From positions 51,770,439 to 51,834,438 of the forward strand of contig NC_063452.1 in assembly GCF_020379485.1 (NCBI RefSeq): a DNA stretch of 64,000 nucleotides, given 5' to 3'. Shown here piece by piece: positions 9,528 through 63,472 of the stretch; within the stretch, counting starts at the first letter, position 1; each line of letters begins with the position of its first letter. The notes beneath the pieces are model-generated. The model was not told the origin of the DNA. It made no database searches and saw only the letters and a list, made by a program, of their open reading frames with translations. The stretch is from Brassica napus. Its lineage: Eukaryota > Streptophyta > Magnoliopsida > Brassicales > Brassicaceae. Position numbers and translations under genes: made by a program.

Positions 9528-10042
9528 TTTCAGTTTTATAAACATTATTGTTGGCATTTGAATATCTACTTTATTTGAATGTCTACTTTGAACTGTTTGA
9601 AAGTTTATTAAAATTTGAATATCTACTTAGAGTTGTTTGAAAGTTTATTAAAAAATTATTAAAATTTGAGTCTATTTTATAAATAAAGTTATATGAAATT
9701 TATATGAAATAAAAATTTATAAATGTCAAAATGCTAATTTTAAAATAATTTCAGTGTAAATATATTTTAGAATGAATAATAAAATTTTCTGTAGTTAAAA
9801 TTGATATCAAATATATGATTAAATCAAAACATGGATATATATGTAATTTGGTTATTAAACTCATTTGAATGATTCATCTAAATGGAGAAACAAACATAAA
9901 ATTCATTCAAATGGTTCATTCAAATGACTCATCCAAATGGAGAAACAAACATGACCAAAAATTTGAATGGATCATTTAGATGGAGCACATAAATGGATCA
10001 GCTGGATGAATTCATCTAAATGAAGAAACAAACAGGGCCGAG

Positions 10043-16124: not shown

Positions 16125-16940
16125 ATGAGAGAACACGTAGGTAAATCCTCTAAACTCTTCAATGGTTTCACGAGTATAATGAGAAGATTCATATTCAAAG
16201 TTCTATGCGTCGGTCCAATCCCTAACCACATCTCATTCATCATGGATGGTAACCGCAGATTCGCCAAGAAACATAATCTTCAAGGCCCAGACGCAGGACA
16301 CAGAGCCGGTTTCGTATCCGTAACCTATGTTCTTCAGTACTGCCAAGAGATTGGTGTGCCGTACGTCACACTCTACGCCTTTGGTATCGATAATTTCAAG
16401 AGAGAACCTGAAGAAGTCAAGTGTATGATGGATCTGATGCTTGAGAAAATCGAGCTCACAATCGATCAAGCTATCTCCGGGAATCTAAAGGATTTGAAAG
16501 TGATCTTTGCTGGTGATTTGAATTTGCTAAACGAGCGTCTTAAAGTCGCAGCTCAGAGCCTGATGGAACTCACTGAGCAGAATAGAGGTTTAGTGGCTGT
16601 GGTTATCGTTGCGTACAGCACAAGTCACGAGATTGTTCAGGCTATTAGAGAATCTTGTGTAAGGAAGTGTGTGGATGGAGATAGCCCTCTGGTTTTGGAG
16701 ATGAGTGATGTTGAAGAGTGTATGTATACATCAATTGTTCCTGATCCGGATCTTGTAATAAGATCAGGAGGAATAGATCGGCTGAGTAACTTCATGACTT
16801 GGCAGAGTTCAAGGTCTCTTCTTCATACCACGGCAGCTCTTTGGCCGGAGTTAGGTCTTTGGCATTTGGTTTGGGCCATTCTTAAATTCCAGAGGATGCA
16901 CGATTACTTGCAGAAGAAGAAGAAGCAAAAACTCGACTAG
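16125..16940 (+). CDS. cis-prenyltransferase, copy 2
   Basis: Single-exon 271-aa paralogue of the enzyme at 3321-4133, very similar over its full length and in its 5' leader. It has [14 protein letters not shown] with Asp41, [19 protein letters not shown], and a C-terminal [15 protein letters not shown] motif starting at Arg213. The position that is usually Glu is Ile217, and Thr214 of the usual RTSG/RTGG is Ser. It starts [14 protein letters not shown], having lost the first few residues of copy 1 through a start shift. Both paralogues keep long intact frames with mostly conservative differences, so both are probably under selection. The duplicate pair parallels two neighbouring Arabidopsis genes (At5g60500/At5g60510, from memory). 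Product chain length cannot be read from sequence. Confidence 0.93.
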
Positions 16941-17343: not shown

Positions 17344-18425
17344 TTAGTACTTAGCCACACCAGGACCAGGTTTGCCTTGGAACCTGCAGACATTACAGAG
17401 AGGTGAGAACAGAGAAGGAGTCTGATACTTGTCTTCTCCACCCATCATTGGCATAGGGACTCCAATCTTAACCGGACTAACGTATCCAGGCCGATATGTT
17501 TTTCCCAAAACACCCTCAACGAGATCACTCAAGCTAAAGAACTTGAACTGAGTCTCAAGATGAGCAAAGACATCACCTTCAGGCAACTGATAGTTATGAA
17601 CTCTGTCTTCCTCTTTCCCTATTGGTCTAACCTTAATATCCATCTGAACAATCCCAGATACCGTGACTCTCACGTTATTCCTCACATCTGTTCTCTCAAC
17701 AACAACTTCCCTTTCTTCAAGATTGATTCTCCACTCTGCTTCACCTCCTGTCGGAACTTCAACTTCTTCCCCGTTCCATCTCACGACAAGAGAGTCTACA
17801 GAGTCGTCCCAAGAGGAAACCTTCTTGGAAGCGATGACTAGGTTGTGAGTATCGAACATGACTGAGAAGGCTTGAACCCATGTGAAGTCTCTGGTTCTAC
17901 CAGCAGGTCTTGTACCGATAAAATGTGCATTGATTTGAAGATTCTCGTCAGAGACGATGGCGAAGTTCCCGTCTTTGTTTCCGTGGAAGTAGAACATCGT
18001 TCCGTCTCCTCCTACAAATCTTGGATCGTAACATAAAGAACCATATCCATTGCAGTTTGCTATCCTCCCTGCTCAAACAACACAAACCAATCAAGATGTG
18101 TTAGGAATCTCACATCCATAAGAGTTACAAAATACATTTTGGGACACTTACATTTGCATGTGACTTCACATTTGCTGCTACAATCGATGAAACAGGCTTT
18201 TTCCTTCTTGTTCATCTGAGGTTTCCTTTGGGGGCATTCCTTGGGACAAGTGAGGATCTTATCGTTACAGTATCCTCTGGCCAAGCATCGAACTCGCTCT
18301 TGGCCCGAGCCAAGTGGAGACAACACCTTGTAGTTCGTTGAAGCTGCATCATAAGCACCTTTCTTTGCTGCTGAAACCGCGGAAACAGAGACAAGAACGA
18401 TGAAAATCACTAGGACTCGTGACAT
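17344..18425 (-). CDS. Secreted root-cap/LEA-related protein 1
   Basis: Two exons on the minus strand (18425-18152 and 18068-17344; 83-bp intron with donor GTAAGT and acceptor GAGCAG) encode 332 aa. Exon 1 holds a signal peptide (MSRVLVIFIVLVSVSAVSA) and a Cys-rich segment with CLARGYCNDK, CPKECP and CKCKW-type motifs. Exon 2 is the conserved root-cap family domain (CNGYGSLCYDPRFVGGDG..MFYFHG..., ending GEDKYQTPSLFSPLCNVCRF). The family is plant-specific and named from root-cap-expressed proteins; the biochemical role is unknown and an extracellular location is inferred from the signal peptide. It is convergent with cis-prenyltransferase copy 2 (about 400 bp apart). Probably the counterpart of At5g60520 (from memory). 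Confidence 0.92.
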
Positions 18426-19866: not shown

Positions 19867-21272
19867 TTAGATATCAGCAGAGAGTGGTTGTTCTTGAGGC
19901 TTAAACCTGCAGAGTCTGCAAGTAGGTGAGAACAGAGAAGGCGTTTGGTACTTGTCTTCTCCTCCCATCACAGGCATTGGGACACCAGTCTTGGCCGTGC
20001 TAACGTAATCAGGACGGTAGGTTTTCCCCAAAACACCCTCAACGAGCTCGCTTAGGTCTAAGAACTTGAACTGAGTCTCAAGATGGGCAAAAGCATCATC
20101 CTGAGGCAACTGGTAGTTGTGAACTCTGTCTTCTTCTTTCCCTATAGGCCTCACTTTGATGTCCATCTGAACAAGACCAGAGACAAGTACTCTCACGCTG
20201 TTTCTCTCGTCGGTTCTTTCGATGACGATCTCTCTCTGTCCTGAATTTGCCCTCCATTCGGATTGTTCATCTTCAGGTAGTGTGATGAGTTGGTCGTTGT
20301 ATCTGATGGTAAAGGCGTCGGTGTTTTCATCCCATTGAGTCACTTTATTGGCTGTGATCACGAGCTTGTGGCTTTCGAACATGACGTTTAGGGCTTGAAC
20401 CCATGTGAAGTCTCTGGTTCTTCCAACGGGTCTTGTACCGATGAAATGAGCGTTGATATGGAGGTTGTTGTCTGAAACGATCGCAAAGTTTCCTCCTTTG
20501 GATCCATGGAAATAGAACATTCTACCGTCTCCTCCAACAAATCTAGGGTCGTAGCAGAGAGAACCGTAGCCGTTACAGTTAGTTTTTCTCCCTGTAAAAA
20601 AGAAGTTACTTGGTGTGTAAGCTAACCCCTTCCTTGTACCACAAGTAATCTATATTTATATATGTTCTTGTTACTTGTGTGAGAAGCAAAGGAGACTAAT
20701 TGTAATAGAATGCACTTACATTTGCATGTAGCTTCGCATTTGCTGGTGCAATCAATGAAGCAACCTTTAGTGTTTCTGTTCTTGGTGGGCTTCCTCTTGG
20801 GACATTCACCAGGACAAACGAGAGTCTTGTAATAACATGCACCCCGACCTTGACACATGGCCTGCTCTTGTCCTGTAGGATATGGTGGAAGCATCCTGTA
20901 TCTAGCAGCTGCTTCGCTCTGCTCCTTGTCCCTCTTCTCTTTCTCCTTCCTCTCTTTTTCCTTCTTCTCCTTTTCCTTCCTCTCCTTGTCCTTCTTTGCT
21001 TTTTCCTCCTTATCCTTCTTCTCTTTCTCCTTCCTTTCCTTGTCCTTCTTGTCCTTATCCTTCTTCTCCTTGTCCTTTGGGCCGTTACCGTTACCGTTAC
21101 CATTACCATTACCTTTGCCTTTACCATCATAACCTCCGTTACCCTTGTCTACTTGTCCACCTTGCCCGTTGTTACCGTTGCCTTTGCCGCCATCGCTGGC
21201 AGCAATGACAATGTCGGTCAAGAGGAGAAATGCGAAGAGAGCGACAAGCACATATGACTTTCTGTGCTCCAT
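19867..21272 (-). CDS. Secreted root-cap/LEA-related protein 2 with Lys/Glu-rich insert
   Basis: Two exons on the minus strand (21272-20720 and 20591-19867) encode 425 aa; the second exon is 725 bp, exactly as long as in the paralogue. Order: signal peptide with hydrophobic core VLVALFAFLLLTDIVIAA (about residues 8-25), a Gly/Asn-rich region of about 40 residues ending in GN dipeptides, and a highly charged KDKE/KEK tract of about 70 residues. These are followed by the same Cys-rich segment (CQGRGACYYK, CPGECPKRK, CFIDCTSKCEATCKCKW) and the root-cap domain (CNGYGSLCYDPRF ... GEDKYQTPSLFSPTCRLCRF). The insert accounts for the extra length. Probably the counterpart of At5g60530 (from memory). 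A cell-wall or mucilage role is only inference. Confidence 0.92.
20925..21115 (-). repeat. Coding repeats: KEK/KDK tract and GN repeats in root-cap protein 2
   Basis: Imperfect in-frame repeats of AAGGAGAAGGAAAAG-type codons and of GGTAACGGTAACGG. They produce long false open frames on the opposite strand (Leu/Phe- and Ser/Leu-rich). Length polymorphism between alleles would be expected. Confidence 0.8.
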
Positions 21273-42030: not shown

Positions 42031-45000
42031 GGGAAAATTTCATTTAAATACCCGAACTAAATTTCAATAAGCTTTTTAATACCCCAACTATTTGTCTACC
42101 CAGATTAATATGCCATCTATTTATTTTACCCAAATTAATACTCTAAATATGAATTGTGTTATCATTTTACAGTGTCGAGTTAACTGAGTTAAATGTCACT
42201 ATAAACGGAGTTAAACGGACGTTTATTTGCTGTGAACTCACTAACCATGGTTAAAACGAGACCTATATTATAAATCCCCAATTATAAACCCTAAATTAGT
42301 AAATCGAGCTCTCATAGCAATGAAAAAGATGAATCCTAGTGGATCTTCATTTAGCTCCAACATAAGCAGTGGAGGAACCCAAGAAGTGAGACAAATGAAA
42401 TTGAGAAGCTGAAGCAGAGCTTGCATTGAGCATTGAAAAGAAGAAGCTTTGTCGACAGTTTGTGATAATATCACGGATTGGATTTGTTTATGTCACTGTT
42501 GTGATTATCAATGCTCAAGTAATTTGTAATGGTTTTAGTTGTAGTGTTATGAAAGGATTGAAATATTTTGTTGCTGTGTTCGGACTGAAATGTTGTTTAG
42601 TTGTTATGTTTAGTAATGAAACGCTAGTTTGCTTCTAAAAGGTGTTAAAAAAAAAAGTAATTGATAAAAGTGAGCTTACACATTAAAAAAAAGAAACAAG
42701 TAGAGTTTACAGACAAACAAAACAAAGTACTATATTGAAAACGCTTCCTACTTGCGTGGCTTTGGACCATGTGAAGAGCTTCCTCCAACCTCTCTTGAAG
42801 TACCAAAACATTCAAAAACACGGTCAGAGAAGGGGCACATGTACACTCCAACACCTCTTGGCACTGTCACTTTACGTGATTGTCCTCTTCCTGGAGGTCG
42901 TCCACGACGGCCGCGTCCACGACCAGTAGGTACAGTAGATGGTGGTGGCTGAGATTGTATCCGTGTAGTTGGTTGAGGAGCAGTGCTTGCAGGCTGAGTT
43001 GAAGCTTGTGATTGATTGGGAGTAGATTGTTGATTTGAGGGCTGTGATAGACTAGTCTTGCGCCTTTTTGGTGGGTTAATGCATCCATCAACCTGTTATG
43101 GTGAAGATTGTAACATGTTCAAAACATCTCACAAGCAACTAAAAAAAACAGAGGAACTAATAGTCTTACTTGTATCTTACGAGGTCTTCCACGTTTGCGT
43201 GCTGGACCTTGGACAACAAAAGCATCTTCTTTACATGTTCCACGATTGTGTCCAATCTTCTTACAGTTCCCACACATTATCGTCCTACCATCTCTTGTCA
43301 CTCTATTTGGTTTGGAAGGAGACTCATGAGCTGCTTTTATCCTCTATTTCTTCGGTCTCCCTGACATCTTCCTAAAACCTGGAACTCCTATTGGATCTTT
43401 ACCGGTTTTTGCCCAAAATATTTCTCCATTAACTGGTTTGATGTTGTCGCTGTAGTTCTCTATCCACACATCAGTATTGTAATAGGGATCTACATGGCTG
43501 CATTTAAAGGAATTACAAACATCAGTCTTATATTAGGGATCTACATAAGCAATGTTTTTACTTACTTCTCTGGCTGTTGGTGGTTGTCATTGATGACACA
43601 TATCGCATGACAACAAGGTATCCCAGTTAGGTCCCATTCACGACAAGCACAATGGCGGAGACGAACACTGACCTCATACCCACAACTATGGAGCAGAACT
43701 TCGAACAAGTTGTCTGAACTTATAAATATAGTACAATACTTGCTCTCTCTTCGATTTAATTCTAGGACATCTGCAACCTTCTTCGGGAAAGGCATTATGC
43801 AAGCTCTTGCTTTCTTAAGTCTCCGAGAAATACGGATCATAGCTTGTCTCCTAATGCTTTCCAGCATGTTAATCAATGGTAGTTCTCTTGCTCCCTTGAT
43901 AGTTTTGTTGAAACTCTCGGATAAGTTGTTACAAACCTGACCCGATCTGGCATTTCCCGAGAAGAAAGCAAGACACCAAGTTGTAGGATCAGCTGCCAAC
44001 AAATCATCATGTGCGTGGATATCAAATGATTTCAGTGCTTCAATGTGCAAATCATACTCTCCCTTTGTTTTACTGTAAGCAACATTCCAAAAAAAAAAAG
44101 GGTTTGTAATCAAGATCTCCATATTTCTTTTTCCAGTTGCCATAGACATGCTTAGCACAGTTTTTGTGCTCAGCGTTTGGAAGAACAGTAGCAAGAGCCA
44201 CTTTCAAACCCTGCATACAACACGAAATACAAAAAAAAATGTCAGACCTTATATTCCATATGTGTAAAGAGTAGCAATATTAGACTTTAAAACCCTAAAT
44301 ACCTTTTGTTTGTCTGAAATTAATAAAAGCAATTCCATCTCCTACACCCAAGTCTAAGTCAGCCGACAACTTCTTCATAAACCATTCCCAAGACTCCTTG
44401 TTCTCTCCTCTTACGACAGCCCAAGCAATCGGATAAATCCTGTTTTCCGCATCCCTACCCACTACTGATAATATCTCTCCCTTCAACTCCCACTTTAAGA
44501 ATGCACCATCAAGGCCTATTAAAGGCCTGCAACATTTCTTCCAAATTCTTCGTAGTGGTTCAAAGCAGATATAGAAGCTTTCAAATACATTGATTCTATC
44601 CTTCTCGACAGTCACAATCTCCGTAGTAACATTTTTGTTACTTCTTTTTAACTCAGCCTCATAGTCCCACAGCTTTGCAAACTGCTGTTTCTGAGTATCT
44701 AACACCATATCTAATGCAATTCTTCTCGCTTTTCTGCATTTATATATAGAAACTGATATGTTGTACCTGTGCATCAGCTCATCTTTGATGTCAAAGCTCC
44801 TTATTTCAGGTCTTCGTCTTGTCTCTTCTTTGAACAAACGTGCAATAGCTCCCTGCTGGAGCATCCTTGCTCTTCCTGTTGGCAGATGATTATGATTGTC
44901 CTCATATAATTTGACCATCCATTTCCTAATAGTGAGCAATATATTCTCCATTTGCACTTCTCGTGTGTGCATATTACTGCATACTTTGTTGGTTGCCACT

Positions 45001-45743
45001 TATTCAACTTCACATCATACTGAGTTTTCAACACATACCTCAGTAATTGATCCTTGAACTCATCCCCCTTTGTGAATGTTTGCATCAACCATAAGTAAGG
45101 AGGCTTATCATAACCAGCCTTGCTTTTTCCTTTAAAGCTTCTTCCACGGCCATCCTTCTTCTGCCAGTTATGCCATTCTTCATCAGTATCTTCAGGAGAA
45201 TCTGAATATTCACCAGTGGGAATTGGTTTCTCAGTTTCGACTTCACTATCAGCTGCTTCATCGTCGTCAATATTCACCGCAGGTGGTGCTTCAAAAAGGA
45301 GTGTAAGCGTCTCAGTTTCCACTGATTCAAAAAAGTTTCCAAACCGTGGGTCAGGTTCTCCTTCAGCTAAAATGTCAGACTCGTCCTGTGATTGTACTCC
45401 ACCTTCTTCCTCTCGATGAACTTCTTCCGCTATCTCTTCTTCATCAGTTTCTGCTTCAGGGTTATCCCCATCACTTTCTTCTTGTTCTTCTCTATCATCA
45501 GCATCACTATCTTCTTCATCATCAGCCTTCTCACCATAGGTTAAATATAAGATGGAATCAAAACCGCGTTCACGTTTTCCGTAACCTCTCTTTCGTATAC
45601 GATCGAAAATAAGTATACGGTTTATACTCAGAGTATTAATTTAGGTAAAATAAATAGATGGGGTATTAATCTGGGCAGGTAAATAATTGGGGTATTAAAA
45701 AGCTTATTAAAATTTAGTTTGGGTATTTAAATGGAATTTTCCC
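42031..45743 (-). mobile_element. Mutator-like element (MULE) with about 100-bp TIRs
   Basis: The left end GGGAAAATTTCATTTAAATACC at 42031 and the right end, read on the minus strand from 45743 as GGGAAAATTCCATTTAAATACC, are inverted copies over about 100 bp. A perfect 9-bp target duplication TTAATAATA flanks it (42022-42030 and 45744-45752). It carries a decayed mudrA-type transposase on the minus strand. The region 42230-42640 is non-coding internal sequence. Confidence 0.93.
43119..45612 (-). pseudogene. MULE transposase (mudrA type), degenerate
   Basis: Minus-strand fragments in order: an acidic Glu/Asp-rich N-terminal region (45612-45180); DNA-binding region (LRYVLKTQYDVKLNKWQPTK..CKWRIYCSL); transposase core with first Asp in LIGLDGAFLKWELKGEILS; second Asp in the shifted frame ISDKQKG near 44310; SWIM zinc finger CACREWDLTGIPCCHAI (about 43600-43660); and a CCHC knuckle CGNCKKIGHNRGTC (about 43240-43280). 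Breaks: frame change near 44960, frame change near 44320, a frame change at the A/T homopolymer near 44091-44100, and an in-frame TAG near 43350 (RPKK-stop-RIKAA). It is not functional as read. A canonical intron may interrupt 44295-44215. Confidence 0.88.
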
Positions 45744-47242: not shown

Positions 47243-49584
47243 TTTAGAATAATATATCGTCTTTACTTTTCATAAAATCAGCATTTAAAAGTGTGTAGAA
47301 CACATACAAAAAATAAAAAGAGTAACCATTGTAGCTTCTCTGTATACTTGTAGTTCATAACTTTTTAAATAATAACACACAAAATATGCGAATTTTAATT
47401 TATCTAGTGATACACTGATATAATACTAATGTCACAGTTATCAAAAGATATATACGGTCATCAGACAATAAACAGAAACATAGCTTTTATAGTCAAATAT
47501 GTTTTGTTGTTTTTAATATATCTTAGAAGATTAAAACTGATAAGTACTATTTTATTGACCTAAAATTCATATAATTGGTAAAAACAAATCGTGTAATAAA
47601 TTTGCTATATAAAACTACGGGGTTTTTGCCAAAACTAACCCACAACTTGATTTTAATCCCAAACTTATACTCAAACTTGAATCAAATGCAAAACTAACCT
47701 AAAAGCCTAATGAAATTACAGCTCAACCCCTTGTGACCAAACAAAAAAACAGAAGTCATTTTTACGAATATAGCCCCAGTAAATCGTCTGAGTCGTCTGA
47801 GATGTTGGAAGTCGTCTGGACGACTGAAGTGTAAGTCGTCTGGTACCAGTATATTTTAAAAATAATTTATAAATCTTGTAAAAAAATATTTTGATGCGTG
47901 AAAAATAAAAATCAAGTAATTATAAACAGTTTTAAGTGATATAAATTAAGATATGATAAAATTGATTTGTTTTGAAGATAGATGAGTGGAAGTAGTGAAT
48001 CATGAAATACTTTGGTTTAGGAGTTTGGCAAACATACGTTGTAGTATTGTATGTATTGTTAGGGTTAGATTTTGGAAAACTAAAATGCTTTTTTCAAAAA
48101 TTAGTTTTCACCTATATGTGTTTATTTCTGTGTATAGTAAACACTTTTCAAGTTTGATTTGGTTTTATGAAGTGCTTAATTAGATAAATAAGTTTAGGGG
48201 TTATGTTTAGGGTGTGGACAACTTATATTTCAGTCGTCTGTTGAATAATTTACCCGGACGACGTATATTTTAGTCGTCCACATCGTACCGAACCTTTAAT
48301 TTTACCAATGTACGTTTTAACCTAACCGGATCATTTTACTCGGACGACTTACATTTCAATCGTCTGGTGAAGAAATTAAAACATGTAAGTCGTCCAAATA
48401 TTTCCGCCTAAATTTTTTTTAAAAAATTATTTTCCCGCTTAAATAATTTAAACCAGACGACTTACTTGTAAGTCGTCTGGAAAGTCTTCTATTTTAGTTT
48501 CCCGCTAAAAATATTTAATTTCCCACTAAAAATATTAAACTCTTCTAGACGACTTACATGTAAGTCGTCTGTTTTAATTTCTTCAACAGACGACTGAAAT
48601 GTAAGTCGTCTAGGAAGTCGTCTGAGTCAAAAATATTTAACCTAATTGGATTTTTTGTCTCCCTATATAAAGAAAAATTTACACATTCTCTCTCCTCCTC
48701 TCAAATGGCTGCAACAAAAATGTAATGTTCATCATTCTAAAACTCTCCAACCTCTCTCTAATCTCTTTGAATTGAAAACACCAAACTTTATATGAATTTT
48801 TCAGTTTTGTCTCATGTATTTCTTACTAATCTATCTCTTTTGCAGATTTTTAATCAAATGGTACTCATCTTCCACTAATTGAAAGGTAGATCTATTAATT
48901 TTAGATATGTATTTTTGTGTGTTCTATAAATGTAGATTTATCTAATTTTCCATTCATTTTCTCTATTTTTAAGTCATTTGAACGTTTTTGGATATGCAGG
49001 TTTTTCAGATCTGGATTTGATATGCAGGTTTTTCAGATCTGGAAGACTTTTGAGACGACTTACTTGTTAGTCGTCTGGAAGTCGTCTGGACTTCTTGGAA
49101 GTCTTCTGACAAAGTCGTCTGGACTTCCAGGAAGTCGTCTGGACTTCCAGGAAGTCGTCTGGATTTTTCTGAGCGTTTTGGTAAATTCTTATGTCTGATT
49201 TTTCTTCATTTGGTAACTTCTTGTTGTATAAATTTCTTACTTTTTTCCCAAACTAAAACTCTCCAAACCTACTCTAATCTCTTTGACTTGAAAACACCAA
49301 ACTTTATATGAATTTTTCAGTTTTGTCTCATGTCTTTCTTACTAATCTATCTTTTTTGTAGGTTTTTAATTAGATGGTACTCATCTTCCACTAATTTAAA
49401 GGTAGATCTATTATTTTTAGATATGTATTTTTGTGTGTTCTGTAAAGGTAGATTTATCTAATCTTCCACTCATTTTTCTGTTTTTATGCCATTTGAACGT
49501 TTTTGAATATGCAGGTTTTTCAAATCTGGATTTAATATGCAGGTTTTTCAGATCTCGAAGACTTCTGGGACGACTTACTTGTTA

Positions 49585-49782
49585 GTCGTCTGGAAGTCGT
49601 CTGGAAGTCGTCTGGAAGTCGTCTGAAAGTCGTCTGGAAGTCGTCTGGAAGTCGTCTGGAAGTCGTCTGGAAGTCGTCCAGAAGTCGTCTGGAAGTCATC
49701 TGAAAGTCGTCTGGAAGTCGTCTGGAAGTCGTCTGGAAGTCATCTGGAAGTCGTCCAGAAGTCGTCTGAAAGTCGTTTGGAC
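49585..49782 (+). repeat. 11-bp tandem array, about 18 units of GTCGTCTGGAA
   Basis: Head-to-tail GTCGTCTGGAA units with few variants (GTCGTCTGAAA, GTCGTCCAGAA, GTCATCTGGAA). From 49783 to about 49946 the array continues as longer units GTCGTCTGGACTTCCTAAAA. The 11-bp period is close to one DNA helical turn. Confidence 0.95.
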
Positions 49783-50644
49783 TTCCTAAAAGTCGTCTGG
49801 ACTTCCTAAAAGTCGTCTGGACTTCCTGTAAAGTCGTCTGGAAGTCGTCTGAACTTCCTAAAAGTCTTCTGACAAAGTCGTCTGAACTTCCTGGAAGTCG
49901 TCTGGACTTCTTAGAAGTCGTCTGGACTTCTTAAAAGTCGTCTGGTCTTGTCTACTCAAGTGGAATCCAAGCTTGTCTTTGTAGAGAAATGATCTATAAT
50001 AGTTTTGTTTGTGGTCTGTTTTGTGAATTGCATGTCTACTCTTTTAGTTGTGAATTTTTTGTAAAATCAGTAATAATGTTTTCCAAGATGTATTAAATGT
50101 GCTAACAATGTGTTTACACATTTACAAATCAATGAAATAATAGACTTCAGTAGCCTTTTTCTTATCTTTGGATCTCTCATATGCAATAATAAACTCCAAT
50201 GGCTTTTTCTCATCTTAATAAACAAGAATGTTGGTAGCTTCATATTGATACAACATTTTAAGAAGCATTTAACCCTTCTTCCAACTCATAACAATAGTCA
50301 TCATTATTGTCTATAACAATAATACTTAAGAGATAGAAACAAACAATAGTAACTAGTCAAAGCATATCATATTTTTTTATAAGTTTGCGTTGAAAAACTT
50401 AGTCAAATTTAGTAAAACTAAGGGAGAGAACATATTTTGTAAATATGAGTTTTACATATCTTGAAGTTACTTATCACTCTTAAAAATACAAGTTATTCAA
50501 AAACTAACGTAGAAGACTTAAAAACTAGCAGAGAAGACGCGGACGACTTCAATCTAAGTTGTCCAGATGACTAAACTATACGTCGTCTGGTCAACGCAGA
50601 GGTTATTTTTGCAATTGACTTTGAAATCTGTTATTTCGGACGAC

Positions 50645-51310
50645 TGAAAAATAAGTCTTCTACTATTGTTTGGTTAAAAAAAACTCCAAAAAAGCTAGAC
50701 GACTTACATTTCAGTCGTCATAGGTTAGTTTTGCATTTGACTGGATTATTTCAGAAGTTTGACTTTTCTGGACGACTTACATTTCAGTCGTCTAGTGAAA
50801 ATTAAAATAATAATATTTTTTTTAAAGTAGACGACTTACAGTTAAGTCGTCATAGGTTAGTTTTGCAATTGAAAAAAAAACTTCAAGATTTAATTATATA
50901 CAGACGACTTATAATTCAGTCGTCCACGAGACGACTGAAATGTAAGTCGTCCAGGATTTACGAGGTTTGACCAGAATCTCGGAAAAAAATCCTCGACGAC
51001 TTACAAGTAAGTCGTCTGGTGGATGACTGAATTATAAGTCGTCTGTGTATAATTAAATCTTGAAGTTTTTTTTTTCAATTGCAAAACTAACCTATGACTA
51101 CTTAATTGTAAGTCGTTTACTTTAAAAAAAATATTATTATTTTAATTTTCGACAGACGACTGAAATGTAAGTCGTCTCGGGAAGTCAAACTTCTGTAATT
51201 ATCCAGTCAAATGCAAAACTAACCTATGACGACTGAAATGTAAGTCGTCTAGGTTCTTTGGAAATTTTTTTGAAACCAAACAATAGTAGACGACTTAACT
51301 TTTAGTCGTC
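50645..51310. repeat. Large imperfect hairpin in the non-autonomous MULE
   Basis: The left arm (about 50645-50935) and right arm (about 51015-51310) are inverted copies containing CTACTATTGTTTGGTT/AACCAAACAATAGTAG at the outside and several short GACGACTTA..TAAGTCGTC palindromes. The loop contains GGTTTGACCAGAA. A homologous hairpin is present at 62181-62878. Confidence 0.85.
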
Positions 51311-51971
51311 TCAGGTTACAGATTTCAAAGTTAATTGCAAAAATAACCTTTGCGTTGACCAGACGACTTCCAGGTAAGTCGTCTACAGCCAGACGACTTC
51401 CAGTTAAGTCGTCTACAGCCAGACGACTTCCCAAGTAAGTCGTCTGACGAACAGATCTGGAAAAAAACTCGATGTCATACCTTAAATTGGTGAGATAAGT
51501 TCCTTAGCATACATAAGGCTTCTCCAAGCACACAGAATCACAAACGAAAGTCACCCACCCAGAATCGTTAGCTTCTATGACTCTATGAACCATAAAAATT
51601 TTAGAATCAAAATCTTGGGTTTTTTAGCTCATTGTGGAGAGAAAGTGAGAGATATGTTGTGTTTAGTTCACAAGAATGGAAAAAGAAGAAGGGTAAATCG
51701 ATTTTGGGAGCATTAAGAGCTTCAAATTGGTTGTTCATGGTGGTTGTGGTATTGATGACAATGGCAATCTTGTAATTACTTGAAGATGATGAGGGTGAGA
51801 GAGTAAAGATGTCATTTTCGAAAAAAAAAGAAAAAAAAAATTGATGGCATTTTCGTAAATTATATGAACTTGTGGGGTGAATAGGGCAAAACCAATTTTC
51901 AAAAAAAAAATGGTTAGTTTTGTGTTTGACTTTAAGTTGTAGGTCAATTTTGCAAAAAACCCTAAAACTAC

Positions 51972-53872: not shown

Positions 53873-54335
53873 AAGACAAAAATAGCACTAAATCAAGTTT
53901 ATGTTCCCAAACTAGCACTCAAGGTCAAAAGTCACAAAAATAGCACTTAATGTTTTATCAAAAGTCACAAACTTAGGGTTTAGAGTTAAAGGGTGGGGTT
54001 TAGGATTTAGGGTTTAGGGTTTAGGGTTTAGAGTTTAGGGTTTAGGGTTTAAATTTTAGGGTTTAGGATTTAGGGTTTAGAGTTTAGGGTTTAGGGTTTA
54101 GAGTTTAGGGTTTAGGGTTTAGAGTTTAGGGTTTAGGGTTTATGGCTTAGGGTTTAGGGTTTAGAGTTTAGGGTTTAGGGTTTAGAGTTTAGGGTTTAGG
54201 GTTTAGAGTTGAGAAATGAGGTTTTGGGGATAAGATTTCAAATTTTGAAAAATAAAAAAATTAAAATTTTCAAAGGATAAAATTGGAAAGGTGTTATTTT
54301 GGTCATTTTAGTTTTTGAGTGTTATTTTTGTGGGG
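53873..54335. mobile_element. Telomere-repeat-bearing element fragment, split by a MULE
   Basis: It starts with AAAAATAGCACTAAATCAAG and AAACTAGCACTC words and contains about 200 bp of TTTAGGG-like repeats (53996-54210). It ends AGTTTTTGAGTGTTATTTTTGTGG, an inverted counterpart of its beginning. Sequence resembling its outer end (GCTATTTTGGAGATTTGC) reappears on the far side of the large MULE at 63453-63470. The MULE may therefore have inserted into it. Confidence 0.5.
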
Positions 54336-54494
54336 AGAATTGCCAAGTGTGACTCAAAACTTGGAGTCAAACCCAAAACAATACCCCAATTTGGGTCAAA
54401 GGCAAAAGTAACCTAAAAGTCTATTGAAATTACAACTATCCCCTTGTGACCAAACAAAAAAACAGAATTTTTTTTATGTTTCTACCCCTCGCAA

Positions 54495-55040
54495 GTCGTC
54501 TGTTTAGACGACTTGAAACTAAGTCGTCCAGACGACTTAACTGAAAGTCGTCTGGACAGTTAGTCTTAAACATAATTTAAAAATTTTGTAAAAAATATTT
54601 TGATAAGTGAAAAATGGGAATTATGTAATTAACATATGTCTTAGGAGGTATAAATTAAGATATAACAAATTTCAATTGTTTTCGGCATAGATGAGTGAAA
54701 GTAGTGAGTCATGATATTCTTTAGTTTATGTTTCATCAACATATGTTGTAGTATTGTATGTGTTCTTAGGGTTAGATTTTGGAAAGCATTAAAACCGTAT
54801 TTGAAAATTTTTAAAATTACTTATGCGTGTTCATTTCTGTGTATAGTAAACACTATTTAAGTATAATTTGATTTTATAACGTGGTTAGTTAGTTAATCTA
54901 GTCATTTTAGTTTAGGGGTTCATTTTAGGGTCTAGGACGACTTAATATTTTGTCGTCTGAAAACAGACGACTAAATATTAAGTCGTCTGTTGTACATTAT
55001 CAGCCAGAATAAGTCGTCTAAACCGGACCAAACCTTAAAG
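54495..55040 (+). repeat. 5' subterminal GTCGTC palindromes of the Ulp1-MULE
   Basis: Motifs such as AAGTCGTCTGTTTAGACGACTT, then AAGTCGTCCAGACGACTT, and later pairs near 54935-55020 flank a roughly 330-bp segment shared with the non-autonomous relative. No coding sequence. A CCGCCG-rich leader (55180-55500, with repeats of CTAGCGCCGCCG) follows before the first exon. Confidence 0.8.
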
Positions 55041-55583
55041 TTTACCAATGTACTTTTAAAGCTAACCGGATTATTTACCCAATATATAAGGTGAGTTTTG
55101 TTTTTTTTGTTTCATTTTTCGCGAAATTCATAAACCCTAACAGTTCTCTCTCAAAGGCGATTTCGAATTCCCACGATTTCCGAACAAACCATCGTTCTCA
55201 ACGTCAGCTATCTATCTCACTTCATTCTCACCGTTGTCGCCGCAGCTTCTTCTAACCCTAGCGCCGCCGATTCCTCTAAACCCTAGCGCCGCCGATTCCT
55301 CTAAACCCTAGCGCCGCCGCTTCCACTATTTCCGAACAAACCGTCGCCCTCGCCACCGTGGTCACCAACGTTCTCACCGCCGCTTCCTCTAAACACTAGC
55401 GCCGCCGCTTCTTCTAAACCCTAGCGCCGCCGCTTCTTCTCTGTAAACCTTAGCGCCGTTTCTCTGTAAACCCTAACGCCGCTAAGTCATCAATCTCGAG
55501 GAAAAGATGAACATAAAACGTTGTCTCTATCAATTTACTCATTCTCACCGTTTCACGTTTATTTTTTCAGATCTATAACCGCA

Positions 55584-58500
55584 ATGACGAGTACTCCAAC
55601 TCCTTCTGCGACTGGAAGACTTGTAAGTAATTTAAGTCGTCTGGAAAGTCTTCCAACTGGACGACTTAGTAGATGACTTAAATATAAGTCGTCCATTTGG
55701 AAGACTTTCCAGACGACTTAAATTTAAGTCGTCTACTAAGTCGTCTGGACTTATATTGTTGTCTTTGATTATTTTGCAGACAAAAAGGATGGATATTCCA
55801 GAACTCCCCCGTAGGTTATACACATCAGGGGAAGAGCCAGAAGCCCACAATAGCATTTCGTATCATACGGATAACAGCAAGTTGCATACTGCTCTTAGGA
55901 AAGCTCTTACTGATGACGAATTTGAAGAGCTCAAGGAGTCGAGTTTGGGAGTTTTCATCAAGTTCAAGGAGCAGGGATTTGGTTGGGCTTCAAGGCTGGT
56001 TCACTACATGCTCAGTTTCAAGCTGGACATTAAGAAGAAGTATGAGATGTGGTCTCTCGTTGGTCCAGAACCTTTGAGGTTTTCACTGTTAGAGTTTGAA
56101 AACCTCACTGGTCTAAACTGCGAGTACATCGAGGACCTTGAGACACCAAAATGTGACGTTACCCCAGAGATGGTTTCTTTCTGGGGGATGCTGGGAGTTC
56201 ATCTGGAAGCTGGGCCAACTACTGATCAGATAATAGCAGCACTGAAGAGATGCGGGGATTGGTCCAGGGAAGATCGCAAGCGGCTCGCGTACCTCTCCAT
56301 CTTCACTGGATTCATTGAAGGGAGAAAGTTTTCAACCGCTACACGATCTACTCTGGCAAGGCTAGTGATGGATTTAGAACGGTTTGAGAATTATCCATGG
56401 GGGAGAGTCGCGTTTAAGGTGCTGATGGACTCTTTGTGGAACAAAGAAATTGCTGGCTGTTACACCGTGGATGGGTTTATACAAGTTCTCCAGGTCTGGA
56501 CGTACACAGCTATGCCGGAATTGTGTGCTAGTATTGGTGGTCCCAGAGCAGACAGTCCGTCTCCACCGATACTGGCTTACGAGGGCAGCAGAGGCCGCAG
56601 ATCAATGAAAGCTGCTATCTTGAGTCAGGTATTTACTTCAATCCAAAAGACTGCGCAGATGACTTATAAGTCGTCTGGAAGGTCGTCCAGCTGGACGACT
56701 TATCGGACGACTTAATTAAGTCGTCTGGAAAGTCTTCCCAGCTGGACGACTTATCGGACGACTTAATTAAGTCGTCTGGAAAGTATTCCATCTGGATGAC
56801 TTATTAGACGACTTATTATAAGTCGTCTGGAAGGTCTTCCAGCTGGACGACTTAGTAGACGACTTATAATTAAGTCGTCTATTTAGTATTTTTTTTCAAA
56901 TATCTAACTCGATTCTTCTATTTACTGCAGACCCGCGTGATCAACTTTGTTGAGAAGGACATTAGTGAAATGTGGCCAAAATGGGACTCTGAGGTTGAGG
57001 ACCTGCCCGCGGAGAACATCATTAAAGTCATGTATGAGCGGAGACCGTGGAAGTGGACCATGGATTGCTGGGAAGTCACTGGTACTAAGGTCAATACAAA
57101 ACCTAAGGTTGTGACTCCATCGAAGAAGGCCAAAGAGATGGTTGTGTTGGAGGAGGAGGAGGAGGAGGAGGAAGACAATCCAAGACCTCGGAAGAAAGCT
57201 CGTAAAGAGGCTCCTAAAGTGGCTAGTGAAGAGGCTAGAGAAGAGGCTAGAGGGGTGACCAGAGAGGAGTTGGAAATTATGTTCAAGGGCGTAGCTGACT
57301 GCATGAAAAAAGGGTTTAATAAGTGCATGAGGGAGTTTAGGAAGTTGTCCGATAGATTGGAAGCTGTGGAGAAGAAGGTTGGTGTCACCAATCAGGCTAC
57401 CCCTCCACCTCTAACCAATCAGGCTACCCCTCAAGATAAACAGCCTACCCCTCTTGCCAAAGAAACCGGGGGTAGAAACAAACAGGCTACCCCTCATGCC
57501 AATGAAACCGTGGTTAGTAACCAGCCTCCTCCTCATCAAACCAAACAGCAGCCTCCTCCTCCTCAAAAGAAACAGCAGCAGCCTCCTCCCCTCAAAAGAA
57601 ACAGCCTCCTCCTCAAAAGAAACAGCCTCCTCAAATCAAAGAGGTTAGTATCAAATCCAGGGTTAACTAGTTGTCCAGACGACTGTAAAAGTTGTCTGGA
57701 CGACTAGTTGACCCTGGACGACTTAAACGTAAGTTGTCTGGACGACTAGTTGACCACGGAAGACTTAATTTTAAGTCGTCCAGGGTCAACTAGTCATCCA
57801 GACAACTTTTATTTAAGTCGTCCAGGGTTAACTTGTGTGCAACTTTTATTGCAGAGATGGTTGCCGGAGGATACAGCAACCGAGGCGAACTCGGTAAATA
57901 AGATCTTGCCGGAAGATAAAGCAGATGGTGTCACCTCCAAAGAGATTGTTGCTGTAACTTCCACCGATCACCAACCGAGCCTCGCTTCCACCGATCAACA
58001 ACCGAGCTTCGCTTCCACCGAGCCAAGCGATCCAGTTTCAGAACCGAGCCTGGTTGTATTGGACAAGCGTGCAAAGAGTAAACGAGCGAAGAAACCTGCT
58101 CCCACTGTGAGATCTCCTTATACGGCAGAGAAAAAAAAAGATAAAGTGGCAGCCTATAATCCATTTCCGCCAGTAAACAAAGATAAGTTGAAGGAACTCG
58201 CTGATTGGTTGAAAACTGATCCGTAAGTGAGTGCTTTACCCATAATAGCTTGATTTAGTCGTCCAAAACTGATTGCTTTTTTGTTTGCAGTCATTATTTA
58301 ACTAAGACCGAGGACAAACCACGTACATCACCAACAAGGTGGTACCACTTCCTCCGGACAGCCAGAGGATGGCTGGAAGACTGCGTAAGTCTTCTGCACA
58401 CGATTTAAGTCGTCTACAAAGTCGTCCAAGTAGACTACTTTCCAGACGACTTAAAGATAAATCGTCTGGAAAGTCGTCTACTTGGACGACCACGTAGACG

Positions 58501-59263
58501 ACTTATATTTAAGTCGTCTGGTAACTTCTAACTTGTTATATTTAATATGCAGCATATAGATGCTTGGATTAATGTGCTAAGGCAGAGGTATCAGGAGAAC
58601 CCACAAGCTTTCAGGAGCGAGCGAATGTGCTTCCTGGATCACAACTTTTCCCAGTCTTGGAGAGAGCAGTATCAGCTCTTCAAAACATCGGAACCTGATC
58701 ACAAAGGTTTAGGAAGAGTTCTACCTGGTGGGGCGTCGAATTTTTATGACGGATCAATACCTTCATTTTGCCAATCAAACAAGAAGTGGGGGGAGGACAT
58801 TGATGATATCTATGCGCCAGTGAACTTGAACGACAAGCATTGGGTTGCTATTTGGATATCGATCCCTAAGAGGCACATAGTCGTCTGGGACAGCATACCT
58901 TCATCTAGTGTACCAGACGCATGGGATGCGATAATGGAGCCTTTTCTCCAGATGGTCCCTTATCTGCTTGTTGAGTGCGCAGCCACCGACGAAATACGGG
59001 TCAAATACGGGTTGGAGCCATACACATATGAGAGACCGCTGAAAGGTGTACCCACGGCCAACAATGGTGATTGTGGCGTGTACGCTGTAAAGTACATTGA
59101 ATGTCATGCTCTCGGGGTCTCCTTTGACCCTAAAGACTTTGCTAGGTGCAACGCGAAGAAAATGAGGGATAATATGGCGGTGGATATATGGAAGGAGCTT
59201 GTTGATCAGCATCTGAAAGAAAATGTGGATGGTGATAAGTTCGTGGGCATGTATGATTTTTGA
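55584..59263 (+). CDS. DUF1985-Ulp1 (C48) protease gene carried by the MULE
   Basis: Predicted exons: 55584-55622, 55780-56628, 56931-57643, 57855-58222, 58291-58384, 58553-59263. Exon 2 holds the DUF1985 domain (283 aa, from MDIPELPRRLYTSGEEPE). Exon 3 is acidic then Pro/Gln/Lys-rich. The last exon (236 aa) is a Ulp1-type cysteine protease with His96 (DKHWVAIWI), Asp113 (VVWDSI) and Cys174 (NNGDCGVYAVKYIEC), numbered in that exon. The usual oxyanion Gln before NxxDCG is Thr168. Such enzymes cleave SUMO-type conjugates; the substrate here is unknown. A 1-nt shift near 57585-57591 puts the exon 3 end out of phase with exon 4, so the copy as read is probably interrupted. Four introns carry the palindromic repeat; the 68-bp fourth has only a half site. 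Confidence 0.8.
55627..55746 (+). repeat. Palindromic repeats in intron 1 of the protease gene
   Basis: TAATTTAAGTCGTCTGGAAA, GGACGACTTAGTAGATGACTT, AAGTCGTCCATTTGGAAGAC and similar words occupy nearly the whole intron (55623-55779) between the donor GTAAGT and acceptor TTTTGCAG. Confidence 0.9.
56645..56885 (+). repeat. Palindromic repeats in intron 2 of the protease gene
   Basis: Four to five units of roughly 48 bp (CTGGACGACTTATCGGACGA, TTAATTAAGTCGTCTGGAAA, GTCTTCCCAG) fill the intron 56629-56930. It is the clearest head-to-tail series of palindrome pairs inside an intron. Confidence 0.92.
57665..57835 (+). repeat. Palindromic repeats in intron 3 of the protease gene
   Basis: A variant unit pairs GTCCAGACGACT/AGTCGTCTGGAC-like words with GGTTAACTAGTTGTCC and GGACGACTAGTTGACC, so the motif has merged with a GGTCAACTAG unit. 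It fills intron 57644-57854. Confidence 0.88.
58395..58525 (+). repeat. Palindromic repeats in intron 5 of the protease gene
   Basis: TTTAAGTCGTCTACAAAGTC, TTTCCAGACGACTTAAAGAT and GGACGACCACGTAGACGACTT fill intron 58385-58552. The short intron 4 (58223-58290) holds just one half site (TTAGTCGTCCAAAAC). Confidence 0.88.
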
Positions 59264-59344
59264 ACTTGTCTTTGTATTTGAACATGATTTTTTAACGAGC
59301 GAAGTATTTGTATTTCAACTTGTCTTTGTATAGATTTGTAAATA

Positions 59345-59695
59345 TATAAGTTGTCTGGAAGAAATAAGTCGTCTGGAAGGTTTTCCAACTGGACGACTTA
59401 CAAATAAGTCGTCTAGAAGGTTTGGACGACTTATTATAAGTCGTCTGGAAGGTTTTCCAACTGGACGACTTACACTGGACTTCTAAAAATAAAATACACT
59501 GGACGACTTACACTGGACTTCTAAAAATAAATAAACTGGACGACTTAGTAGAAGGTAGTCTAAAAATAAAATACAATTGAAGGAAGAAATAAGTTGTCTG
59601 GAAGGCTTGGACGACTTATAATTAAGTCGTCTGGTAGGTTTTCCAACTGGACGACTTACAAATAAGTCGTCTGGAAGGTTTTCCAGCTGGACAAC
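59345..59695. repeat. Palindromic repeats between the convergent genes
   Basis: Units such as AAGTCGTCTGGAAGGTTTTC, CAACTGGACGACTTA and AAATAAGTCGTC lie between the protease stop (59263) and the transposase stop (59695), i.e. in the shared 3' untranslated/terminator space. Confidence 0.88.
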
Positions 59696-62104
59696 TAGTC
59701 AACTGGTTGTGTACATTGTGGTTTCGTATGGCCAGTTTCCTTGCAGTTTGAGCATCTCCGTGCCCTGTGTTTCTTCCTAGGTTTGTGTCCTCTCATCCTA
59801 GATAGCTCCAACCAAGATTGCCATCTTGATTTCTTCGGTCTCCCCCGACCACGCTTTAGTTCTGGAGGAAAGCATTCTCGTTCCTCAATATGTTGTGACA
59901 CGATAGGATATATATTCTCTGAGTATCCTGCATACAGATAATTCTTTGAGTACAGTGGACATACAAGTGTGGAGATATGCAAACCAGCATGTGTTCCAGC
60001 AGCTATAGCATGAGAGCAAGGTATTTTCTCCACTCCATAGACACCACAATCACACTTTGCATGTTCCAAATCAACCACACAGTCCATTTTGCCACCTTTG
60101 ACAAAGAAATGCCATCCATCAATTGGTTCGACCGTCATCGTATCCGCTATCTCTTCTCGAACAGCAAGCAAGTATTCAACAGCCCGGCTATGTTCAGTTG
60201 TGAGACTCAAAGCATCTTGTCTCCTTTTCCAATACCATTTTCCTAACTTCTGCCTTATGAACTCCAGCAGGAACGTAATCGGAAATCCTCTTGCTCGCTT
60301 CAGTGCGGAATTAATAGATTCAGCAATGTTGCTTGTTTTTATGTTGAACCTGTTCCCCTTACAATAAACCCTTGACCATAGCCTGACGTCGGCTTTCTCC
60401 AAATACGTTGCAAGTTCCGGGTTTGCACTCCGTATCTCAGCCATGTACCGGTCAAAATCGTAAACCGTGTGAGCATAAGCAGCCCCTTTCACCAAGTACA
60501 TGAGATGTTTCCCTTTAAACTTTTTGACAATGTTATCTTGAAGGTGATAATAACATATTCCTCGGGTTTCCCAAGGAAACACCTTATCACACGCACTTTT
60601 AATGGCCTTGTGCCGGTCGGAGACTATCACCAGAGGCTTGTCATGAGATATACAACTAGCCAATTTTGTGAAAAACCATTCCCAAGAAGGTACATCTTCC
60701 TCATCCATGATCCCAAAAGCCAATGGGAATATCTGAAAATTGCCATCTTGTGCGGCTGCAACTAACATAGTTCCTCCATACTTTCCACTTAGGTGAGTTC
60801 CATCCACCACAATGACCCTTCTCTGATACTTAAAACCTTTGATAGAAGCTCCAAAAGAGAGAAATAGATACTTAAATCTTTTCATAGAATCAAGTTCTAT
60901 CGCCGTGATAGAATCAGGATTTGCAATGGAGATTTGCTCGAGATATGATGCCAGAATACCCTTCTTCTGCTGATCCTCTCACCAATCTTTGTGCATATAA
61001 CAGTGCTCTGTATGAAGTGGTGTAATCAAGCGCCATGCCAAACATGTTCCTCATTGCATCAGTGATATGCTGCGGAGTTATCCCATCAATGATTCCAACA
61101 CGATCAATGAAAAGACTACCTACATACTTCGGAGTACAGTGTCTCCGCTGAGCGATTCGGTCTCCCGCTGAGCATAAATGTTTTTCCACATACTTTGTTA
61201 CCCAAAACGTGTTTGTCCCATGTTTGACACTCGCTCTGACCTTCCATCCACAATAGCTAACCCGACATGTTGCCACAACGAGAGTTTTCGTTGATTTGTA
61301 TAATCTGAAAGAAAACTTACCCCTCACTGCTGCCAACCGCAGCTCTGAAAGCAGTGCACGCTTGCTAACAAAACTCTGGTTGACATAAATACTGGTACCA
61401 TTCGATTTTCCTCCTTCAATAGCATTTGTCTTAGCATATGTCTTTTGGATTTCTTCAAAACAAATATTATCATCATCTTCCTCGTCCTCATCTGGAACCT
61501 TTCCATAAAGACTGTAATCCCCACCATTCTGATCTGTTTCACCAACAATAGAATTATCAGCATCCTCCTCCCCATTTTCCTCCTCCCCATCTTGATTTTC
61601 ATCTTCAACAAACTCATTATCACCAACATCTTCATCATCATCACCAACATCTTCTTCCCATTCACCAGCTTCATCATTATCACCAACATCTTTTTCCCAT
61701 TCACCAGCTTCATCAATATCCCTTTTCTCTGAAACCGTTTCGACCTTGCTGCGGCTTGATACACAAAGACATACTCTATGGGTTTTGAGTATCTCCAGCA
61801 AGTTTCGAACTTGTCTATCACTTGTAACATGAATGGGAAGACTGCCTGGAGCCATCATCATTTCTGCTGGTAATGAGTAGCTAATCTCCACACTCACTGT
61901 TCTCATGTCCAGGTTATAATCTTCTTGAGCCATTGCAACAAGTTCAGCATGTGTTGAATCTTCATTCAATAAAAACAATCTTGCTCCTTTGAGATCATCA
62001 ACCACAAAATCCCAACGGAAATCTCTCAACAACCATTCTCCATACACTGCATGTAACTGAAAAATCATCTGCAAATATTCAAAATAAAACACATTAGTAA
62101 ACAT
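59695..62104 (-). pseudogene. MULE transposase (mudrA/Kaonashi-like), one-base frameshift
   Basis: Minus-strand transposase of about 790 codons if read from the ATG at 62068-62066, or slightly longer from 62104. Order: N-terminal PB1-like/variable region (QLHAVYGEWLLRDFRWDF); a long Asp/Glu-rich linker (DNDEAGEWEEDVGDDDEDVG); an N-terminal DNA-binding region ending RVSYCGWKVRASVKHG; and the MULE core with first Asp in VVDGTHLSGKY, second Asp in IVSDRHKAI and candidate Glu in SNIAESINSALK. A SWIM finger CDCGVYGVEKIPCSHAI, an RGRGRPKKS basic AT-hook-like motif, and CCHC knuckle CSNCKETGHTKPQC close it. One frame change near 60955-60961 (an extra base in a C run on the plus strand) separates the halves; I see no other lesion. 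The frame is otherwise clean, so the loss looks recent. Confidence 0.88.
61455..61735 (-). repeat. Coding repeat: acidic linker of the transposase
   Basis: In-frame repeats of GATGAAGCTGGTGAATGGGA and GTTGGTGATAATGATG encode DEAGEWEEDVGDDDED-like units. The opposite strand shows a false Ile/Phe-rich frame. Confidence 0.75.
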
Positions 62105-62109
62105 AGAGA

Positions 62110-62960
62110 AAATGAAGTCGTCCAGAAGACTTTAAGGTAAGTCGTCTAAAGAGGTCACTTTTGCAATTGAAAATTAAAAAGGACGACTTAATTCTAAGTC
62201 GTCCGGCTTTGTTTGTTAAAAAAAAAACTTCAGACGACTTATATATAAGTCGTCTACGAGAAACGGGCTAGTTTTGCATTTGACCGAATCGTGTCAGATC
62301 TTTGACTATTTCTGGACGACTTATAATTCAGTCGTCTCTGGGAAAGTTAAAATTTCAATATTTTATGAAAACTTGACGACTTACGTGTAAGTCGTCCTAG
62401 GTTAGTTTTGTAATTGAAAAATAAAACTTGAAATTTAACTTTCTCCAGACGACTTAGATGAAAGTCGTCCAGCTAAACGACTTAATTTAAGGTCGTTCGG
62501 GATAAGCAAAGTTTGACCAGAAAATTGGGAAAAATTCTGGACGACTTTGCTTTCCCCGGACGACTTTAAATTAAGTCTTCTGGAGGGACGACTTTATATT
62601 AAGTCGTCTGGTTAAAGTTAAATTATGAAGTTTTATTTTTCAATTACAAAACTAACCTAGGACGACTTACACGTAAGTCGTCAAGTTTTCATAAAATATT
62701 GAAATTTTAACTTTCCCAGAGACGACTGAATTATAAGTCGTCCAGAAATAGTCAAAGATCTGACACGATTCGGTCAAATGCAAAACTAGCCCGTTTCTCG
62801 TAGACGACTTATATATAAGTCGTCTGGAGTGTTTTTTTTTAACAAACAAAGCTGGACGACTTAATTTAAGTCGTCCGTTTGACCAGAAGACTCATCAGTA
62901 AGTCTTCTACATACAGATGACTTACTAGTAAGTCTTCTACGCGAACAGATCTTGAAAAAA
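62110..62960. repeat. 3' subterminal palindromes and large hairpin of the Ulp1-MULE
   Basis: Arms 62181 to about 62490 and about 62590 to 62878 are inverted copies with several internal GACGACTTA..TAAGTCGTC palindromes. The loop contains AGTTTGACCAGAAAATTGGG, similar to the loop of the hairpin at 50645-51310. It is located just upstream of the transposase start, so it may lie in its promoter or leader. Confidence 0.85.
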
Positions 62961-63472
62961 AATTCAAATTTGTACCTTAAACTAGGTGAGATGACTTCGT
63001 TTGCACACAGGGTCTTCTCCAACCACCCAGAACCTCAAACGAAAGCAACCGTTAGTCAAAACGAAAGAAATATGGCTCTGTCAACCATAGCCCATATTTT
63101 GAATCAAAAGCTTGAGTTTTTTGGATGAATATAGAGAGAAAGTGAAAGAAATGTTGTTTTTAGTTCATAACAATTGAAACAGAGAGAGTGTAAAGAGATT
63201 TACGTGCATTAAAGGGCATTAAAAGCTCCAAACAGTTCGTACAAGGTTGTTGCCACTATTCATTGCAGTGGCAATATTGTAAATACTTGAAGAAGATGAG
63301 GTTGAGACAGTAAAACAGCCATTTTCGAAAAAAAAAAATGTTAATGGCATTTTCGTAGATAATATGCAGGTGTAGGGTTAAAATCTCAAAAAAAGAGTCA
63401 AAAGAAAAGGTTAGTTTTCTGTTTGACTCCAAGTTTTGAGTCAACTTAGAAAGATGCTATTTTGGAGATTTG

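Follow-up and report, generated by a model that had tools for sequence, protein, structure and literature searches.

Why should a short palindromic motif fill the introns of a protease gene carried by a transposon, together with the space beside that gene and both ends of the element? The question is raised by a 64-kb stretch of Brassica napus DNA (contig NC_063452.1; 'the window' below means this whole stretch), which carries two related elements of the Mutator-like (MULE) type, here called E1 and E2. E1 contains two convergent genes, a DUF1985-Ulp1 gene on the + strand and a MULE transposase on the - strand. The answer proposed, and considered probable, is that E1 is a Brassica VANDAL-type MULE whose VANC/Kaonashi-type anti-silencing protein binds the arrays of dyads formed by the motif. 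It draws on features legible in the DNA: the placement of the motif, its dyad form, homology to VANC21, the arrays of a gene-less relative, the potential of the sites to form hairpins and their identity to published small RNAs. The layout of E1 is as follows, z being the score of the predicted RNA fold and MFE its minimum free energy.

54344-63463: element E1, a MULE with two convergent genes (ends approximate, from homology to E2 near both ends)
54490-55020: 5' subterminal motif zone, 5 exact half-sites (motif counts)
55584-55622, + strand: exon 1 of the DUF1985-Ulp1 gene as predicted, which may be 5' untranslated region (UTR; gene model, homologue starts)
55623-55779, + strand: intron 1, predicted hairpin of inverted motifs, with exact matches to published small RNAs (z -10.7)
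55780-56628, + strand: exon 2, DUF1985 domain, VANC21-like
56629-56930, + strand: intron 2, predicted hairpins and an array of 51-bp period (Tandem Repeats Finder, period 51 x 4.5; z -15.5)
56931-57643, + strand: exon 3, repeat-rich linker with a single-base frameshift
57644-57854, + strand: intron 3, degenerate motif, two long predicted hairpins (z -20.3)
57855-58222, + strand: exon 4 (gene model)
58223-58290, + strand: intron 4, 68 bp, one motif core only, without a hairpin (z +1.1)
58291-58384, + strand: exon 5 (gene model)
58385-58552, + strand: intron 5, predicted hairpin of near full length, with exact matches to 4 Bna-miRC small RNAs (z -13.1)
58553-59263, + strand: exon 6, Ulp1 (C48) protease domain (PF02902, 2.1e-35)
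59340-59694: motif array between the convergent genes (12 exact half-sites in 59264-59694)
59695-62104, - strand: MULE transposase, two open reading frames (ORFs) in different frames, with MULE, SWIM, weak zinc-knuckle and MuDR DNA-binding domains (ORF list, Pfam)
62110-62950: 3' subterminal predicted hairpin of about 800 nt (inverted repeat, 98% over 219 nt; MFE -576, z -55), with 17 exact half-sites in 62105-63463

The exact half-site GACGACTTA occurs 84 times on the two strands of the window, against 0.39 ± 0.60 in 100 dinucleotide shuffles, and every copy is in a non-coding part of an element (59 in E1, 25 in E2). None is found in the 2,774 bp of exons, the 2,410 bp of transposase ORFs or the 50,543 bp that make up the remainder of the window. 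Within E1, the copies are divided between intron 1 (6, or 38 per kb), intron 2 (12, 40 per kb), intron 3 (3, 14 per kb), intron 5 (4, 24 per kb), the intergenic space (12), the 3' subterminal zone (17) and the 5' flank (5), such that introns 1, 2, 3 and 5 and the intergenic space contain 37 of the 59. These counts bear out an earlier sequence-only reading, in which the motif was said to fill the introns, both subterminal zones and the intergenic space, to be reduced to a half site in intron 4 (no exact copy, one core) and to leave the exons free of runs; an equal density in exons is thus not seen. That reading needs amendment in two respects. Intron 3 had been grouped with introns 1, 2 and 5 as filled by the motif, but its copies are mostly the degenerate variants GTTGTC/GACAAC (AGTYGTC occurs 10 times), and the motif, although confined to non-coding DNA, is not exclusive to one element, given the copies in E2. 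Furthermore, GTCGTC/GACGAC is found once in the exons and not at all in the transposase, where a first-order model predicts 0.84 and 0.39 respectively; hence the exons are at chance level for the motif rather than depleted, and it is the non-coding parts that are enriched.

Half-sites that face each other at 11-13 bp do so at 13 bp in 15 of 20 pairs, giving a 22-bp dyad, GACGACTTA-N4-TAAGTCGTC, with a 4-bp spacer and a CG in each half. With the copies aligned on one exact half, information content is 0.40-0.92 bits per position in the partner half and 0.14-0.55 in the spacer; it is 0.76, 0.57 and 0.39 bits at the three bases (YRG) that adjoin the aligned half on its outer side, and 0.01-0.39 at the remaining flanking positions, except for one at 0.60. 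Orientation is balanced in introns 1, 2, 3 and 5 and the intergenic space (25 + / 23 -). The motif was also considered as an intron maker or splice donor: TAAGTCGTC after G gives GTAAGT, and degenerate half-sites coincide with the donors of introns 1 and 5 (55623 and 58385). In the introns, however, none of the 25 half-sites, on either strand, carries exact GTAAGTCGTC, compared with 29 of 59 half-sites elsewhere (20 of these 29 belong to E2, and the copies are not independent of one another). No strand-specific signal was evident, and this candidate was set aside.

The gene that houses these arrays had been described as having five introns. All are predicted as GT..AG, with introns 1, 2, 3 and 5 in phase 0 and intron 4 in phase 2 once the exon-3 frameshift is allowed for, and junctions 2-5 are collinear with the annotated B. 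napus protein of LOC111207285 (P0001), the best homologue (92% identity over 98%). Intron 1 is less secure as an interruption of the coding sequence. P0001 and four others of six homologues compared begin at the exon-2 methionine, which suggests that intron 1 may be part of the 5' UTR; in a pattern test on the best 120 of 262 matches (from 7,989 scored candidates), 40 of 120 start in this way and 13 have the pattern internally. The named homologues among these 120 are from Brassica, Raphanus, Sinapis and Eutrema. Intron-like peptides are detected in 9 of the 120 by tblastn at E 0.01, most clearly for intron 3 in a radish protein (P0002), whose gene model treats part of an intron-3-like array as coding. 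Two further corrections to the earlier gene models are the exon-3 frameshift and the division of the transposase between two ORFs in different frames. As both E1 genes are frameshifted, this copy is probably not autonomous today, unless the frameshifts are assembly errors.

Pfam was applied to six pieces of the window, leaving out exons 1 and 5 and part of exon 3. It places DUF1985 (PF09331, 6.4e-26) in the exon-2 region. In the Ulp1 domain of exon 6, H, D and C residues can be seen by eye, presumably in the order typical of the Ulp1 (C48) family, and the domain is present in 28 of 30 alignment members. In the transposase, the MULE domain (1.5e-22), SWIM (above cut-off) and a MuDR DNA-binding domain are identified, and a CCHC zinc knuckle falls under the cut-off (17.7 against 20.8 bits) with C-x2-C-x4-H-x4-C legible by eye. 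The DUF1985 domain matches VANC21 chain 9lnj (E 1.4e-4), and in a structure model it shares the fold of the VANC21 structure solved with DNA; this match comes from single-sequence searches together with the model, and a profile search against PDB returned six SENP protease sequences, VANC21 not being among them.

The earlier reading knew of no described system with this layout. One is on record in Arabidopsis, where VANC21 binds a short motif repeated across VANDAL21, in its introns, its intergenic space and its terminal non-coding DNA (Hosaka 2017, PMC5735166). E1 resembles VANDAL21/VANC21 and VANDAL6/VANC6, as treated in that paper, in being a MULE with a DUF1985 protein, in repeating a short motif in the same three kinds of non-coding DNA and in that the repeats expand and change together; the motif is one base from that of VANC6, AGTTGTCC. 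It differs from them in the 22-bp inverted dyad with a CG per half, in the long predicted hairpins, in the presence of Ulp1 and in having two visible genes rather than VANA, VANB and VANC. VANC proteins with DUF287 are shown in the same paper, whereas DUF287 is found neither among the Pfam matches in the six pieces scanned nor among the families of the 30 alignment members. Same-orientation motifs are described there for VANC21, which is perhaps not a defining trait, E1 arrays being mixed and one E2 array running in a single direction. A MULE transposase with SWIM and CCHC typifies the VANDAL group, although other MULE groups also have SWIM or CCHC (PMC6446971). According to the available part of a recent review, some VANCs carry Ulp1 and KIU elements recognise motifs in KIU elements (PMC13317346), and a VANC-type gene with a captured Ulp1 domain is likewise what E1 appears to share with the Kaonashi (KIU) MULEs described there.

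The earlier suggestion of a binding-site array for a protein of the element remains the best reading, except that the DUF1985 protein is a likelier binder than the transposase: the arrays most probably serve as docking sites for an anti-silencing protein that the element itself encodes. Its DUF1985 domain would recognise the 22-bp dyad, and with arrays in the introns, in the intergenic space and towards either end, the protein would be loaded along the entire element, where, by analogy with VANC21, it may strip or block DNA methylation.

The same protection may extend to E2, of which E1-type proteins would make use:

47610-47618: left target-site duplication (TSD) of E2, TAAAACTAC
47619-51962: element E2, non-autonomous relative of E1 (73-77% to E1 in three blocks; ORF list)
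49050-49970, + strand: same-direction array of AAGTCGTCTGG with prominent 11-bp steps, 28 + / 2 - sites
50565-51384: subterminal predicted hairpin, counterpart of the E1 3' hairpin (inverted repeat, fold; MFE -603, z -54)
51963-51971: right TSD, TAAAACTAC

A 9-bp TSD with degenerate terminal inverted repeats counts among VANDAL features; that of E2 is a perfect 9 bp on both sides. No ORF of at least 100 aa is present for E2 in the ORF list. The 73-77% matches to E1 are in three longer blocks. The same-direction array contains 14 steps of 11 bp, about one helical turn. E2 also contains a direct duplication (48737-49049 and 49253-49564; 314 columns, 92%), of which the second copy extends into this array. 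For E1, a clean TSD was looked for and only near-matches were found, the longest an 11-mer with one mismatch; its ends share a 35-bp inverted match at 91%, and other terminal repeats were compared by eye.

That the arrays are instead sites for the element's transposase, like the subterminal repeats of other DNA transposons, with the intron copies as spill-over, would be compatible with arrays near both ends, with the MuDR DNA-binding domain of the transposase and with the retention of arrays by the gene-less E2 between its TSDs. Such a role is nevertheless improbable, because exact sites are densest in introns 1 and 2 and between the genes rather than at the ends, to which they are not confined, while it is the DUF1985 domain that matches a protein solved with DNA and a VANC motif that the repeat resembles.

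Comparison of E1 with E2 shows constraint on the motif well in one of the three blocks only. Within the 3' subterminal block, identity is 94% (E1 motifs) or 96% (E2 motifs) in motif columns against 74-75% in the others, a level that none of 483 and none of 459 circular shifts attains; a further 8 motif columns of E1 are gapped. For the 5' block the figures are 81 against 77% for E1 motifs (210 of 551 shifts as high) and 100 against 76% for E2 motifs on 16 columns (15 of 546), and in the terminal block, where E1 has no motif, 66 against 73% for E2 motifs (419 of 510).

Internal amplification, also proposed earlier, is supported. Introns 1 and 2 have 71 bp in common at 90%, and a stretch of 51 bp in intron 2 recurs in the intergenic array at 94%; among pairs of compartments, 33 of 45 match before masking of the motif and 4 of 45 afterwards, none of the 4 involving an intron, though masking takes out the greater part of the dense arrays. 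The arms of the subterminal hairpins (fold scores from 20 shuffles each) are 93% identical within E1 and 92% within E2, compared with 74-78% between elements, and 47 two-against-two site patterns group the arms of one element while none groups like arms across elements. As the hairpin is at a homologous place in both elements, the pattern is most simply explained by homogenisation from arm to arm; that each element formed the hairpin anew is a less likely account. On this sequence evidence, the arrays expand and stay uniform by block copying and arm-to-arm correction. These processes could suffice by themselves, the arrays having no binding function and representing a palindromic word propagated by slippage during replication and by template switching, and surviving only where coding constraint is absent. 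The tandem and inverted structure, the blocks common to introns and intergenic space, the homogenised arms, the chance-level exons and the motif columns not clearly favoured in two of the three blocks would all fit. This is nonetheless unlikely, as the dyad is conserved when most of its flanks are not, its columns outlast others in the 3' block and it is similar to a VANC motif.

Because the sites are mostly inverted, transcripts can form hairpins, as predicted for every intron except intron 4, and such hairpins, if diced, would probably give rise to small RNAs of 20-22 nt, which would contribute to the silencing of these regions by the host. Published small RNAs were compared for exact 20-22 nt identity to the window; the papers were found via the motif, so its presence in their sequences is not independent. 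Eight of 62 B. napus candidates (PMC3599582, Table 3) match exactly: one in intron 2, four in intron 5, two in the E1 3' zone and one in the E2 hairpin. The 44 broccoli entries of PMC4167151 (Table 2) yield a single match, which lies in intron 1. Of 165 distinct sequences in Table 2 of PMC4920421, six match: three in intron 1 (one also in intron 2, and one identical to the PMC4167151 match), one in the intergenic array and two in exon 2. The total is 14 distinct sequences, 12 of them in arrays. The idea that the palindromes generate small RNAs is supported by these matches, except for the two in exon 2, the broccoli small RNAs TTTGGTTGGGCTTCAAGGCTG (count 629) and AGGCTAGTGATGGATTTAGAA (count 62), which are exact sense matches at 55978 and 56359, outside the arrays. 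With 1-2 mismatches there are 1 of 62, 3 of 44 and 11 of 165 further matches, several outside the arrays and both elements; reversed and shuffled control sequences give none within 2 mismatches. The intron-1 match TGGACGACTTAGTAGATGACTT, with 2,665 reads, has the top count in PMC4920421 Table 2 by eye, and the 'conserved' miR400-3p (10,669 reads; the sole sequence tested of 84 in Table 1) is one base off sites in intron 2 and the intergenic array. The four cabbage miRNAs of PMC3840582 give no match within 2 mismatches, although miR9410 and miR9411 from that paper contain the motif core. miR9410, which has no near match in the window, is still studied, although according to a 2023 paper clear information on its function is lacking (PMC10113308).

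These data suggest that several published Brassica microRNAs, highly counted ones included, are small interfering RNAs (siRNAs) of this transposon family. The reads may come from other copies, and the sizes are those that the papers kept as miRNAs, which is uninformative on 24-nt siRNAs. No word beginning 'transpos' occurs in the available text of PMC3599582, PMC3840582 or PMC4920421, and among the papers listed by searches of open-licence literature, most of them unopened, none was seen to link these miRNAs to a DUF1985 MULE. That the hairpins are themselves the functional product, microRNA-like genes of host or element with the motif as by-product, is very unlikely despite the strong predicted folds and the exact matches, since the same-direction array of E2 is not a hairpin design and the matching small RNAs are of several kinds and fall on both strands, as expected of siRNAs.

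A few other features of the window may be recorded. A degenerate TTTAGGG-like repeat (53980-54220, by eye) adjoins the left end of E1, and GC-rich tandem repeats of about 25 bp (55238-55481) are upstream of the DUF1985-Ulp1 coding region. A further MULE remnant (43562-45322; MULE and SWIM domains, two ORFs) has no exact GACGACTTA. ORF 8919-9578 has a DDE_Tnp_4 transposase domain and is presumably Harbinger-like. Similar genes are paired at 3321-4133 and 16125-16940 (prenyltransferase domain) and at 17344-17997 and 19867-20520 (Root_cap domain).

Ulp1-bearing Kaonashi (KIU) MULEs were reportedly described by Sasaki in EMBO J in 2022. In En/Spm, TnpA sites form subterminal arrays, and hairpins of the Mu killer type are known for MULEs. 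TnpA has been linked to demethylation (PMC10398659), so En/Spm shares with E1 repeated short sites and, there, an element protein tied to demethylation, but E1 belongs to a different superfamily and has sites in introns and between genes as well. With Mu killer-type hairpins and the siRNAs of MULE terminal inverted repeats (PMC10398659) the likeness is that of a MULE inverted repeat as a source of siRNA, a candidate one here; the difference is that here both elements carry the hairpin permanently, built of the motif array.

These findings put forward a specific motif as the candidate target of a VANC/KIU protein in a genus of crop plants, with a geometry of inverted dyads and hairpin introns that is not stated for VANC in the available text of PMC5735166. 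A tentative extension, on the doubtful side, is a self-limiting circuit in which the intron hairpins are the protein's own target sites, so that one pre-mRNA would give both the antidote and the small RNAs that re-silence those sites; the element would then meter its own activity, and arm-to-arm correction would keep target and hairpin matched as the motif evolves. An arms race between VANC and RNA-directed methylation has been proposed (PMC10398659), and the combination of binding sites, an anti-silencing gene and a possible small-RNA source in the same bases would make it directly testable.
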